64,000 nucleotides of DNA from assembly GCF_002159665.1 (NCBI RefSeq), contig NZ_NFJC01000001.1, forward strand, positions 372,001 through 436,000, written 5' to 3'. Below are positions 1-64,000 of this stretch, piece after piece (the stretch's first letter is position 1; every line of letters starts with the position of its first letter). Position numbers and translations under genes: made by a program. Under the pieces are notes generated by a model. That model was not told where the DNA came from, made no database searches, and worked only from the letters and a program-made list of their open reading frames with translations. This DNA is from Desulfovibrio sp. An276 (lineage in GTDB: Bacteria > Desulfobacterota > Desulfovibrionia > Desulfovibrionales > Desulfovibrionaceae).

Positions 1-455
1 TCCACGACCACCTTCACCTCGTTGGGATCCTCGAATTCCTCCACTGTTGCCATGTCTGCCATGAGATTCACCACATTGATGGACGCATCCTTGAGCATGG
101 GTTCCACTGCGTCGTCGATCATCTGCGGCTGCACCATGGGCTCGTCGCCCTGCACCATAACCACGATATCAATCTTCTTGCCAGTCTCTTCCTCGATTTT
201 CAAAAGAGCTTCGGCTGTCCTTGTGGAACAGCGGGTATGGGTGTCGCTTGTCATGATGCATTTGAGGCCGACCTTCTTGCAGTAGTCCGCAATAATGTCG
301 TCGCAGGTGGCCACATAGGTTTCGGACAGAATCTTGCTCTTGGCAGTTCTGAAGGCAACATGGCCCACCATGGGGACACCATGGATAAGGGCAAGGGGTT
401 TGCCGGGATAACGGCTTGAGCCCATGCGGGCGGGAATGATGGCTACGATATTCAT
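1..455 (-). CDS. CMP-sugar synthetase (KdsB/acylneuraminate cytidylyltransferase family), partial
   Basis: The 3' end of this gene runs off the left edge, leaving about 151 N-terminal residues. The start ATG is at 455-453, after AAGGA. The N-terminus carries the nucleotidyltransferase signature IPARMGSSRYPGKPL at about residues 7-21, and VQGDEP lies near residue 120, as in enzymes that activate KDO or sialic acids with CTP. The usual HxSGTDR motif of KDO synthetases is replaced by HTRCSTR, so the substrate may be a different 2-keto-3-deoxy sugar. The gene follows an epimerase and an aldolase on the same strand, which fits synthesis of a surface-glycan precursor in the cytoplasm. The family is clear; the substrate is not. 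Confidence 0.85.
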   Translation of the reverse strand, partial: MNIVAIIPARMGSSRYPGKPLALIHGVPMVGHVAFRTAKSKILSETYVATCDDIIADYCKKVGLKCIMTSDTHTRCSTRTAEALLKIEEETGKKIDIVVMVQGDEPMVQPQMIDDAVEPMLKDASINVVNLMADMATVEEFEDPNEVKVVV

Positions 456-524
456 AGAGTTCCTTCGGCGCAGTCCCGTGCCTGGGACTAAAAAAAGGCG
501 CCGCCTCCTTTGTTTTTTTGTTTT
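453..524 (-). promoter_or_regulatory. Shared 5' leader element, copy 1 (cytidylyltransferase gene)
   Basis: Read in the gene direction, an A-rich stretch is followed by AAAGGAGGCGGCGCC, an inner hairpin (GTCCC/GGGAC), then GCGCCGAAGGA and the ATG. CGGCGC and GCGCCG can pair to enclose the inner hairpin. GGAGG lies 53 nt before the ATG. The same arrangement precedes the genes starting at 8396 (minus) and 17606 (plus). Confidence 0.55.
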
Positions 525-6725: not shown

Positions 6726-8396
6726 CTAAATCTCCGAAATGATGGCAACCACTATGGGATCGCGATCCAGCACGCGCCTGAAGAAATGGCGCAGCGTGCT
6801 TCGTATTCCCTCCTGCACGTCCTGAGGCGCGAGATTGGAAGCCCTCGCCCTTTCAAGCTCGTCCAGAATAAGACACTTGGCGTCATCCAGAACATATCGG
6901 AACTGATCGAAGACAACGCCCCTGGACACTATTTCCGGACCATAGAGAACGTATCCCGTCTCGCTGTCCGTCACGAGCACGACTATGACCATCCCCTCAT
7001 CGCCCATGATACGGCGCTCGTGCAAGACGGAAACGCCCACGTCGCCAACGCCCTTGCCGTCCACAAGCGTGTAGTCGACTGCGATGGGGGGAAGAAGCTC
7101 GACCCTGTCCCTTTCAAGGCTCAGGGGATGGCCATCCTCAAGAATGACCACCTTGTCCTCGGCGACACCGCATTCATGGGCCAGGCGCCCGTGTTTTATG
7201 AGATGGCGGTACTCCCCGTGCACAGGCACAAAGTATTCCGGTCTCGTGGCAAGGAGCATGTCCCTGAGCTCTTCCTTCTGGGCATGGCCAGAGGCGTGGA
7301 TTGCCCAGACGCTCTCGTAAAAGACTTCCGCGCCCTGCCTGTACATCTCGTCTATGAGGTGCGAGATGACCCTGGCATTGCCGGGAATGACCCTGGAGCT
7401 CATGAGCACAGTGTCCCCCTTGTGTATGTGGAGCTGTCTGTGACGGCCATAGGCCATGCGCGAGAGCGCACTCATGGGCTCGCCCTGGGCTCCGGTTACG
7501 ATGAGGACCACCTTCTCGTCCGGGAGATCGGGTATGCCGTTGTGGGCATTGTAAAAGGCCTCGGGCACATGGTTGATGCCCAGATCGCTGGACATTTCGA
7601 TATTGTTGGCAAGGCTGCGGCCGCTGATGACCACTGTTCTGTCGTATTTGACGGCAAGATCGAAGACTTCCTGTATACGCTGCAGATGGCTCGAGAACAG
7701 GGTGATGACAATGCGCCCCTTGGCCCTGGCAAAGACATTGTCCAGGGAATCCATGACCTCGCGTTCCGTGAGACTTCTCCCCTCCCGTTCAATATTGGTG
7801 GAATCCGACATGAGCAGACGGACTCCCTTTTCGCCGGCAAAGGCACTGAAAAGCTCAAGATCCGTTCCCGCACCGGAAAGGGGGTGCGGATCGACCTTGA
7901 AGTCGCCTGTGTGCAGGATCTTGCCTACAGGGGTCTCGACCCCCAGAGCGAAACCCTGGGGGATGGAATGACAGACAGGCAGAAAATGGAAGCGCATGTC
8001 CCCCAGCTGTACAGGCTTGTCCGGCCCGACAGTCTGCAGATTGACAAGATCCAGAATGCCTCTTTCCTCCAGCTTGTGGCTGACAAGGGCCAGGGTAAGA
8101 GGCGAGCCGTACAATGTCACGCCCCGAAGCTCGGGGACAATCCAGGGCAGGGCTCCTATGTGATCCTCGTGTCCGTGGGTCAGGACTATGCCGAGAATAC
8201 TGTTCTTGACGGATTTGACCACGCCAAAGTGGGGAATGAGCACATCTATGCCGAGATGCTCGTCGCTGGGAAACATGAGGCCGCAGTCCACCATGACCAC
8301 GCCCCTTGCGGTCTCCCAGAGCTGGCAATTGAGGCCAATCTCTCCGAGACCGCCCAGCGGGGTTATGACAAGCTTCTCGTCTGTCTGTACTGTCAT
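6726..8396 (-). CDS. rnj: Ribonuclease J
   Basis: This is a metallo-beta-lactamase/beta-CASP ribonuclease with 5'-3' exo- and endonuclease activity in mRNA decay and rRNA maturation. The HxHxDH metal motif is seen as THGHEDHIGALPW near residue 78, preceded by TPLGGLGEIGLN. The beta-CASP region (MSDSTN, then SSHLQRIQ) and the later HASGHA and PVHGEYRHL motifs are intact. The length (556 residues) is typical. The ATG at 8396 is preceded by a TTG; neither has a strong ribosome-binding site, but the leader carries the element described separately. Confidence 0.95.
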   Translation of the reverse strand: MTVQTDEKLVITPLGGLGEIGLNCQLWETARGVVMVDCGLMFPSDEHLGIDVLIPHFGVVKSVKNSILGIVLTHGHEDHIGALPWIVPELRGVTLYGSPLTLALVSHKLEERGILDLVNLQTVGPDKPVQLGDMRFHFLPVCHSIPQGFALGVETPVGKILHTGDFKVDPHPLSGAGTDLELFSAFAGEKGVRLLMSDSTNIEREGRSLTEREVMDSLDNVFARAKGRIVITLFSSHLQRIQEVFDLAVKYDRTVVISGRSLANNIEMSSDLGINHVPEAFYNAHNGIPDLPDEKVVLIVTGAQGEPMSALSRMAYGRHRQLHIHKGDTVLMSSRVIPGNARVISHLIDEMYRQGAEVFYESVWAIHASGHAQKEELRDMLLATRPEYFVPVHGEYRHLIKHGRLAHECGVAEDKVVILEDGHPLSLERDRVELLPPIAVDYTLVDGKGVGDVGVSVLHERRIMGDEGMVIVVLVTDSETGYVLYGPEIVSRGVVFDQFRYVLDDAKCLILDELERARASNLAPQDVQEGIRSTLRHFFRRVLDRDPIVVAIISEI

Positions 8397-8473
8397 CAAC
8401 GTTCAGCGCAAGGCCCCTGCCCTCGTGTCAGGGATAACGCGCCGCCTCCTTATGTGAATTTTTTTGTTTTTTG
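8394..8473 (-). promoter_or_regulatory. Shared 5' leader element, copy 2 (rnj)
   Basis: In the gene direction, a tract of A and C precedes ATAAGGAGGCGGCGCG, then an inner hairpin (CCCTG/CAGGG) and GCGCTGAA before the ATG. CGGCGC can pair with GCGCTG using one G-U pair. GGAGG lies 53 nt before the ATG, the same distance as in copy 1. Because RNase J acts on RNA ends, autoregulation at this leader is conceivable. Confidence 0.55.
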
Positions 8474-17530: not shown

Positions 17531-17606
17531 CAAAAAAAAAACAAAATGGAGGCGGCGCTTGGTCCCTTTTTGCATGAACGAAAAGGGGCCGCGCCGAAGA
17601 AAGAGA
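17531..17606 (+). promoter_or_regulatory. Shared 5' leader element, copy 3 (lipoprotein gene)
   Basis: An A-rich tract is followed by ATGGAGGCGGCGC, an inner hairpin (GGTCCCTTTT with AAAAGGGGCC), GCGCCGAAG and the start codon. CGGCGC pairs with GCGCCG. GGAGG lies 58 nt before the ATG, against 53 nt in the other two copies. Confidence 0.55.
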
Positions 17607-18091
17607 TGAAAAACATCAAGGCATGCGCATTCATGTGCGCTCTTCTGCTCGTCCTGAACGGATGCGCAGCGTCTGGAACAAATGGCAGCGAAGCAGGCAA
17701 AGCTGCAGCTCAGGCCGGCTCGCAGGCTGCGTCCACGGCCCCAGAGGGCAAGAATCAGGTTCAGGCCAAGCTGGATCAGACCGGCATGAAACTCGCGTCC
17801 ATGGCCAACAGGACAGTGGCCCCCAACAAGAAAACCCCCACGGTTACCAAAAGGGGCAAGGAATACGTTGCTTCCTATGTGGAAGTCGATTTGCAGTCCG
17901 TGCGCACAACCATGCGTCCCGGCCAGTCTTCCAGGGTGCCCTATGTGGGCATCATCGAATACATGGAAAACGGCTACGAGTGCCGCGGCACAACAAGGGC
18001 CGCAGCAAAGTCCCTCAAGGACTGCAAGCCGACCAAGAGCAGGCGTGTTCAGGAACTTATCAGCTACGATGGCAAGAAGTGGCAGTACTAG
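17606..18091 (+). CDS. Small lipoprotein of unknown function
   Basis: The N-terminus has a lipoprotein signal with lipobox LNGC, so the mature protein should begin with a lipidated cysteine near residue 19 and sit in the envelope. The first part of the mature chain is Ala/Gly/Ser/Gln-rich and probably flexible. The C-terminal half (from GKEYVASYVEVDLQS) looks folded and has two cysteines. I recognise no family. The ATG at 17606 is preceded by GAAGAAAGAG; an in-frame ATG at 17546 would place 20 charged residues before the signal and is unlikely. It has the leader element described separately. Confidence 0.72.
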   Translation: MKNIKACAFMCALLLVLNGCAASGTNGSEAGKAAAQAGSQAASTAPEGKNQVQAKLDQTGMKLASMANRTVAPNKKTPTVTKRGKEYVASYVEVDLQSVRTTMRPGQSSRVPYVGIIEYMENGYECRGTTRAAAKSLKDCKPTKSRRVQELISYDGKKWQY

Positions 18092-32394: not shown

Positions 32395-32471
32395 AGGAGC
32401 GTAGCTCAGGTGGCTAGAGCGCTTCCTTGACACGGAAGAGGTCAGCAGTTCAAGTCTGCTCGTTCCTACCA
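32395..32471 (+). tRNA. tRNA-Val (anticodon GAC)
   Basis: The 77-base sequence folds as a standard cloverleaf with encoded CCA. The acceptor stem is AGGAGCG/CGTTCCT, the D stem GCTC/GAGC, the anticodon stem CTTCC/GGAAG with loop TTGACAC, and the T stem AGCAG/CTGCT with TTCAAGT. The anticodon GAC reads valine codons. It lies between trmFO and thrS. Confidence 0.97.
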
Positions 32472-44432: not shown

Positions 44433-44469
44433 TCCTTGACAAGGAAATCGCTTGTGACTACCTTGCATC

Positions 44470-44548
44470 TGCCGGGTGGCGGTAGCGCTGCCAACCCCGT
44501 CAGGTCCGAAAGGAAGCAGCGGTAACAGAGGTTGCCGGGTGCCCGGCA
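44470..44548 (+). ncRNA. ffs: Signal recognition particle RNA (4.5S-like)
   Basis: The ends TGCCGGG and CCCGGCA pair, and the tip carries the invariant SRP domain IV sequence: AGGTCCGAAAGGAAGCAGC with its GAAA-type tetraloop and internal A-rich bulge. The size, about 79 bases, is that of the small bacterial form without an Alu domain. It binds Ffh for co-translational targeting. Confidence 0.93.
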
Positions 44549-44597
44549 TTTACTAGGCATTCAGCACAGGAAGCAAACAGACTTCCTGACGGATATC

Positions 44598-63856: not shown

Positions 63857-64000
63857 ATGAGCATTGTTGCGCATTCCCCGAGTCCGCAAAAACCAGATAC
63901 GAAAACAAAAAAGGGAGGGGCGCATCCTCTCCTGCTTGTCCGCAGGGAACTTGAGCGCCAATTTTGGGATGAAGCTTCATCACACCAGTCCGGACGACAG
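63857..64000 (+). CDS. Unknown protein, truncated by window edge
   Basis: From the ATG at 63857 the frame stays open to the last base (48 codons) and the product is cut by the edge. The start is Pro/Lys-rich, then HPLLLVRRELERQFWDEASS, which looks like real coding sequence but matches no family I know. The ribosome-binding site is weak. It could also be a chance open frame. Confidence 0.35.
   Translation, partial: MSIVAHSPSPQKPDTKTKKGGAHPLLLVRRELERQFWDEASSHQSGRQ

Follow-up and report, generated by a model that had tools for sequence, protein, structure and literature searches.

Why would three unrelated genes share a leader in which a GGAGG lies more than 50 nt before the start codon? The window analysed here, a 64,000-nt stretch of the Desulfovibrio sp. 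An276 genome (contig NZ_NFJC01000001.1, positions 372,001 to 436,000), contains such leaders at 453-524 (minus strand), 8394-8473 (minus) and 17531-17606 (plus), in front of kdsB, rnj and a gene for a lipoprotein-like protein, respectively. The first-pass annotation had placed the leaders there, and we confirm its positions, the occurrence of GGAGGCGGCGC and a closing GCGCYGAA in all three, and its GGAGG-to-ATG distances of 53 (kdsB), 53 (rnj) and 58 nt (lipoprotein). It had also considered the GGAGG too far away to act as the ribosome-binding site, and had offered a riboregulator, an RNase J cleavage signal or a family of leader repeats as possibilities.

Four leaders in the window share one hairpin

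Read in the direction of its gene, the element consists of GGAGG, an outer stem of the CGGCGC/GCGCCG type, a variable inner hairpin, a spacer of mostly 7-10 nt and the ATG (Table 1). Of the order of parts described earlier, GGAGG, stem and ATG hold, while the A-rich tract and the inner hairpin vary and some copies have the outer stem alone. The closing motif is real but is not a separate motif: since GCGCCG and the outer CGGCGC are reverse complements of each other, the former is the second arm of the same stem. The window holds four copies, one more than had been reported; in the fourth, a 9-nt spacer leads to an ATG at 63969, and the open reading frame (ORF), which runs past the window end, encodes what we take from its translation to be a class A penicillin-binding protein. 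The kdsB gene is cut by the opposite edge, and the five kdsB models match it from model position 1-5, all below cut-off. No Pfam or NCBIfam match to the lipoprotein-like protein was obtained at the thresholds used.

Table 1. Coordinates of the leader elements in the window and of the genes that follow them.
Feature	Position	Strand	Basis
GGAGG (Shine-Dalgarno), lipoprotein leader	17548..17552	+	sequence; base conservation in G023 copies
Outer stem 5' arm CGGCGC, lipoprotein leader	17553..17558	+	fold and pair counts
Variable inner hairpin, lipoprotein leader	17559..17590	+	fold
Outer stem 3' arm GCGCCG, lipoprotein leader	17591..17596	+	fold and pair counts
Spacer hairpin-to-ATG, 9 nt (predicted bridged Shine-Dalgarno spacing), lipoprotein leader	17597..17605	+	
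Lipoprotein-like gene, 161 aa, served by the leader	17606..18091	+	
GGAGG, RNase J leader	8445..8449	-	
Hairpin, RNase J leader; arms 8439-8444 / 8404-8409	8404..8444	-	fold
Spacer, RNase J leader, 7 nt	8397-8403	-	
RNase J family gene, 556 aa	6726..8396	-	TIGR00649, 500.8 bits (cut-off 400)
GGAGG, kdsB leader	504..508	-	
Hairpin, kdsB leader; arms 498-503 / 466-471	466..503	-	fold
Spacer, kdsB leader, 10 nt	456-465	-	
kdsB, 3-deoxy-manno-octulosonate cytidylyltransferase, cut by window edge	1..455	-	five kdsB models
GGAGG, fourth copy	63914..63918	+	covariance models
Hairpin, fourth copy; arms GGCGC 63919-63923 / GCGCC 63955-63959	63919..63959	+	covariance model

No Rfam 15 family was found at the element, either in the window (gathering threshold) or at 17 loci (E up to 1). 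The window also contains an ordinary tRNA and a bacterial small SRP RNA, at 32395-32468 and 44468-44553. At one locus (L023:1351-1461, minus strand), a sub-threshold match to HgcC (RF00062; 35.5 bits, gathering threshold 50, E 6.7e-5) lies just upstream of a copy of the element.

The element recurs before start codons across the An276 genome

The 3.2-Mb An276 genome contains 26 exact copies of GGAGGCGGCGC, compared with one of a reversed control pattern. For 22 of these seeds, an ATG starting an ORF of 60 aa or more follows at a distance of 28-53 nt; the remaining four were dropped, three having no matching closing arm and one (L021) allowing a 5-bp stem but having no such ORF. When folded between GGAGG and ATG, the 22 copies each form a closed stem that leaves 7-15 nt, and 7-12 nt in 21 of them.

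Two covariance models were built, R1 from these 22 copies and R2 exclusively from 40 copies in G023, a genome of another species (the best 40 of its 88 matches). R2 re-finds the three window leaders at E values of 2e-10, 1.5e-8 and 1.6e-6 and recovers the fourth copy (63899-63961, E 6e-7), together with one chance-level match (E 0.59). In An276, R1 gives 49 matches at E ≤ 1, including 36 at E ≤ 0.05. The best 30 of the 49 comprise the 22 training copies and eight new ones and all precede a start codon, the new copies each standing before an ORF of at least 113 aa; changed stems seen among the eight by eye are CTGCGC/GCGCAG and TGGCGC/GCGCCA. The suggested family of leader repeats is thus borne out by seeds throughout the genome and by matches in relatives, and its fixed position before start codons by the best 30 of the 49 R1 matches in An276 and by the 40 best copies of G023.

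The proteins annotated downstream (19 in An276, four of them without a family at the thresholds used, and 10 in G023) are mostly housekeeping and share no common theme; they include RNase J, NusA, a semialdehyde dehydrogenase, an AAA lid protein, a ferredoxin-type protein, GAPDH, PGK, TrpS and signal peptidase I. Curated models for kdsB, sucD, rfbF, GAPDH, TrpS, HslU, LeuB and IspH match from model position 1-2 and residue 1-5 (the cut kdsB being under cut-off), and the start codons are therefore right.

The outer stem is conserved through compensatory changes

The seed-based alignment was set aside for the analysis of covariation, which it cannot reveal because its 5' arm served as the search seed, and the alignment from the other species was used instead. 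The 13 pairs that make up two helices in the 40 G023 copies are formed in 91.6% of cells, as against 31-40% for slid partners, and each of the five GGAGG bases is kept in 39 or 40 copies. Two-sided changes occur at 8 pairs and in 49 cells, where shuffles average 5.1 and 17.9 and reach the observed values in 1 and 0 of 500 cases; because the copies are related and come from a single genome, these figures should not be read as probabilities.

Automatic stem extraction from further genomes hit unrelated places and was left out in favour of 70 checked copies (22 from An276, 40 from G023 and 8 orthologs). Standard base pairs fill 412 of the 420 cells of the outer six positions, and 62 of the 70 copies have all six. 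The second pair is G-C in 38 copies, A-T in 26, G-T in 5 and T-A in 1, and the sixth is T-A in 34, C-G in 23, T-G in 8 and unpaired in 5. The conserved fold suggested by the first-pass annotation is upheld, with covariation visible both in the two-sided changes of G023 and in compensatory pairs between orthologous leaders (below).

Other pairings were considered as the conserved structure and rejected. Pairing of AGGAAA with UUUCCU or with UUUCC was no better than in shuffles, and pairing of GGAGG with CCUCC is conserved, yet with no two-sided change.

Folding would bring the GGAGG to an ordinary distance

The stem begins directly after the GGAGG, and the folded hairpin would thus bring this sequence to a normal Shine-Dalgarno distance. 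The earlier objection that the GGAGG is too far from the ATG to be the ribosome-binding site is less well supported than its opposite, as the stem closes exactly between the GGAGG and the short spacer. Over the 70 checked copies the linear gap ranges from 27 to 54 nt (sd 6.3), whereas the gap bridged by the predicted fold is 7-12 nt in 69 copies and 15 nt in one (sd 1.4). Taken by genome, linear distances are 28-53 nt (sd 8.2) in An276 and 40-54 nt (sd 2.2) in G023, and bridged distances 7-15 nt (sd 1.9) and 7-11 nt (sd 0.95), respectively. Pairing energies of the bridged sequence with the standard 16S anti-Shine-Dalgarno, which is assumed for the An276 species, have medians of -11.5 kcal/mol in An276 and -9.5 kcal/mol in G023. 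Between hairpin and ATG, only one of 62 copies, that of kdsB, reaches -4 kcal/mol, the level taken to mark a Shine-Dalgarno-like site.

Two observations count against bridging. The predicted probability that the GGAGG is unpaired averages 0.40-0.42, with 23 of 62 copies above 0.5; the probable reason is that many copies contain a CCUCC able to pair with the GGAGG. In addition, transposon geometry by itself could account for the steady spacing of young copies. Orthologous leaders weigh most for bridging, because there such geometry had time to decay.

Orthologous genes carry either the element or a nearby Shine-Dalgarno sequence

The lipoprotein gene has an ortholog in G087 whose protein is 77% identical to that of An276, and the stems of the two leaders, CAGTGC/GCACTG in G087 and CGGCGC/GCGCCG in An276, differ by two compensatory pairs. 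In seven other genomes (G093, G049, G090, G080, G062, G056 and G023) the gene has no element and instead a GGAG-, GAGG- or AGGA-type sequence near the ATG; in G073 neither an element nor a Shine-Dalgarno sequence is clear. The orthologs in G074 and G068 aligned inside the gene only, and their starts were left out of the comparison.

At rnj, the element is present in An276 (CGGCGC/GCGCTG), G087 (CGGCGC/GCGCCG) and G093 (CAGCGC/GCGCTG) and absent from 27 of the 30 loci read; since the starts of rnj orthologs often differ, no claim about Shine-Dalgarno sequences is made for these 27. The GAPDH gene has the element in seven of 30 loci read (G023, G068, G070, G064, G065, G067 and G076, representing seven species), with linear GGAGG-to-ATG distances of 27-52 nt and bridged distances of 7-10 nt. 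The GAPDH leader of G065 is a bare 7-bp stem with a 5-nt loop, and the stem in G076 is CTGCGT/GCGCAG. All 23 GAPDH loci without the element have AGGA, GAGG, GGAG or AGGG at -18 to -4.

The element is unevenly spread within the genus and occurs beyond it

Covariance-model searches of relatives brought up further copies. Among 41 genomes, R1 at E ≤ 0.05 gives 36 matches in An276, 88 in G023 and 0 to 6 in the remaining 39, and R2 at E ≤ 1e-4 has matches in 22 of the 79 genomes searched within the genus (67, 67, 64, 43 and 39 copies in the richest, 14 in An276); all these counts per genome are lower bounds, because at most 13-150 candidates were scored in each. In a phylum sample of 395 genomes, with 13 candidates scored per genome, five had matches at E ≤ 1e-6; An276 and one other of the five belong to the same genus.

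Outside the genus, in genomes chosen for holding an 18-mer of the element, R2 at E ≤ 1e-3 finds 58 copies in a deltaproteobacterial metagenome-assembled genome (MAG), Gx485, 32 and 12 in two Anaerobiospirillum MAGs, 7 in Baaleninema simplex PCC 7105, 6 in a Prochloraceae, 4 in a Ktedonobacteraceae and 3 in a Steroidobacteraceae MAG. Twenty named loci were read among 80 listed, of 114 found. Inside and outside the genus taken together, an ORF of at least 100 aa begins 5-7 nt past the end of the model match in 15 of 23 places, the other eight having shorter ORFs, a different offset or none. Among 52 viral stretches that contain the 18-mer, three are matched by R2 (E up to 0.05), and the others are taken as chance. 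At L234:580-634 the element precedes a 37-aa ORF that presumably encodes ribosomal protein L36.

The same structure adjoins TnpB genes

At four loci (L302, L311, L249 and L383) the opposite-strand ORF adjoining the element is TnpB, with PF01385 (OrfB_IS605) and PF07282 (Cas12f1-like_TNB) above cut-off; the L302 protein also matches NF040570, L302 and L311 are viral contigs, and further TnpB-adjoining loci were found by tblastn. In the cyanobacterium Baaleninema, where TnpB again lies next to the element on the other strand (partly masked in L379), L379, L380, L381 and L384 share nearly identical upstream DNA, of which L383 is a diverged relative, and L382 represents another TnpB-like context. 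The TnpB match at L171, in a Desulfovibrio MAG, covers residues 286-375 only and lies 55 nt from the model match. Two copies in G040, which belongs to another family of the order, are on short contigs (L076 and L099) with a TnpB match alongside, and are therefore probably mobile copies, possibly stemming from contamination. A search for linkage to the Y1 transposase TnpA did not show one: Y1_Tnp is found in 11 of 12 genomes, and of 30 such loci, one has an R2 match at 3e-7 and two have weak ones.

Searched with two TnpB queries, neither the window nor 63 stretches of An276 and G023 yielded a remnant. The copies in the window are solo, and we thus refer to them as derived from IS200/IS605-type ends and not as members of that class. 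Since the same structure adjoins TnpB of IS200/IS605-type transposons, the likeliest origin of the solo copies, as far as can be judged from sequence, is exaptation of transposon ends.

The surroundings of the copies bear on how they may have arrived. ATGA adjoins 64 of the 70 checked copies, as would be expected if TCAT was the target; its background is 6 of 30 in the window by a crude caller, but 22 of 23 among GAPDH starts without the element. In Baaleninema, the full copies L381 and L384 have no clear gene after ATGA, so that insertion would not be confined to start codons. A second palindrome about 25-55 nt upstream, as in miniature elements, was seen by eye in 14 or more of the 40 G023 copies; some copies in this genome have GTCTGATCAG..GATCAGAC, 27-53 nt upstream of GGAGG. 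Copies L490 and L494 of Gx485 have an unrelated palindrome, AGAATCG..CGATTCT, at a similar place. In the Anaerobiospirillum genome G095, all 11 fetched copies, seven of them identical, end (by the model) 5-6 nt before the ATG or GTG of different ORFs of at least 61 aa. In three of the G095 copies (L367, L368 and L375) the upstream DNA is conserved, over about 270 nt between L367 and L375, and contains an open frame, whereas the downstream genes differ. An upstream ORF of Anaerobiospirillum copies resembled the end of IscB but had no Pfam, NCBIfam or PDB match, and the name was dropped. Between the element-bearing proteins of An276 (22) and G023 (from the best 40 of 88 matches), one pair matches at 1e-10, with 34% identity, and the elements were likely gained independently in the two genomes.

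A bridged ribosome-binding site of probable transposon origin

These observations lend themselves to an explanation to which we assign a probability of about 0.82, namely that each copy is a hairpin-bridged ribosome-binding site descended from an end of IS200/IS605-type (TnpB-bearing) transposons. On this proposal the GGAGG would pair with 16S rRNA while 16-46 nt are looped out by the stem that begins with the following base, and the mostly 7-10 nt after the stem would set the distance to the start codon, allowing a distant Shine-Dalgarno sequence to work as if it were close. The ancestor would have been one end of a transposon lying next to 5'-TCAT, which reads ATGA on the other strand. Insertion at a start codon within ATGA would displace the gene's own Shine-Dalgarno sequence and bring a new one; the rest of the transposon would later be lost, and selection would retain the end because the gene needs it.

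We also lean, with less assurance, towards a dual use of the transposon end: a DNA hairpin for transposition that, once transcribed outward, may work as a portable bridged ribosome-binding site. A TCAT-targeting element of this kind would repair the gene that it displaces at the start codon, so that insertions cost little, and in several lineages tens of housekeeping genes, including ribosomal protein genes, may now depend on solo ends.

Alternative explanations

A different possibility is a regulatory switch, in which closed GGAGG-CCUCC pairing alternates with an open outer stem and the genes form a regulon governed by temperature, a protein or a small molecule. Many G023 copies have UUCCUCC, which could pair with the GGAGG in 95.5% of cells, and in the fold ensemble the GGAGG is on average about 40% unpaired. 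The lack of two-sided changes in this pairing nevertheless argues against a switch, as do the scarcity of TTCCTCC among the 22 An276 seed copies, its absence from the shortest GAPDH leaders, in which GGAGG and outer stem persist, and the absence of a common theme among the annotated downstream genes; we regard a switch as unlikely. A signal at which RNase J, a CsrA-like protein or some other protein binds or cleaves, with no relation to the spacing of the start site, is the least probable of the readings considered. Although rnj itself has a copy and internal loops UUCCU/UUUCC are common in G023, the inner sequence is missing in some copies, 27 of the 30 rnj loci read lack the element, and the steady feature is the spacing to the ATG. 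The RNase J cleavage signal proposed earlier in particular finds no support, rnj being one of 22 genes downstream of seed copies.

The copies could also be passive relics, miniature elements that landed at ATGA by chance and play no part in translation. The presence of the same structure beside TnpB would fit such relics, as would the upstream palindrome seen by eye in 14 or more of the 40 G023 copies and the identical copies before different genes in G095. What makes this reading very improbable is that the start-codon position is held in the 30 best of 49 An276 matches and the 40 best of 88 in G023, that orthologous copies keep their pairing via compensatory changes, and that genes including gap, pgk, trpS, ispH and nusA, like all but kdsB, lack a Shine-Dalgarno-like site in the stretch from hairpin to ATG.

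Relation to known systems

RNA thermometers and riboswitches that mask the Shine-Dalgarno sequence are likewise structured leaders around that sequence. They mask it, however, whereas the GGAGG of the present element lies outside the covarying stem. The ends of IS200/IS605 and TnpB transposons, and of their miniature derivatives (MITE/PATE), have a hairpin near a fixed short sequence. The element resembles them in its hairpin, which has ATGA next to it in most checked copies, and, in non-solo copies, in a TnpB gene on the opposite strand; it differs in the outward GGAGG at the foot of the hairpin, which a flanking gene could use, and in its solo copies at start codons.

The closest mechanistic parallel comes from phage T4, where, according to passages of PMC3014915, hairpins between Shine-Dalgarno sequence and AUG cut the spacing from 22 to 5 nt in gene 38 and from 27 to 11 nt in gene 25 and improve initiation. 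The likeness to these split ribosome-binding sites, as those passages present them, is an intervening hairpin that shortens an over-long spacing, in our case by a predicted fold. In T4 this concerns two phage genes, while the element is a sequence-related, TnpB-linked family that stands in front of unrelated cellular genes, tens of them per genome, and recurs in several phyla. Free-standing IS605 stem loops without transposase, kept at the RNA level with compensatory changes, have been described for lipoprotein genes on Borrelia plasmids (Delihas 2009, PMC2775950, in parts of the text); there they sit at the 3' ends of genes, with role unknown, whereas the Desulfovibrio elements precede start codons. 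The main text of PMC2775950 contains no words beginning with "ribosom" or "Shine". Searches of open-licence papers listed no report of a TnpB/IS605 end serving as a ribosome-binding site, of start-codon insertion of this kind, of a comparable hairpin family between Shine-Dalgarno sequence and start, or of such a Desulfovibrio motif. As far as we have found, then, the mechanism is known from T4 genes 25 and 38 and the dispersed, transposon-derived family is new.

The bridged ribosome-binding sites that we found in print are those of the two T4 genes, and here a dispersed cellular family would provide them for tens of genes per genome. Surveys that look for a Shine-Dalgarno sequence just before the ATG may miss such genes. 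The copies form a natural library of hairpins of varied size with near-constant bridged spacing, which makes reading by the 30S subunit across a hairpin directly testable, and the orthologs with and without the element are ready-made controls. If the proposed explanation is true, this would be a mobile element that donates translation signals, not promoters, to the genes beside which it lands.
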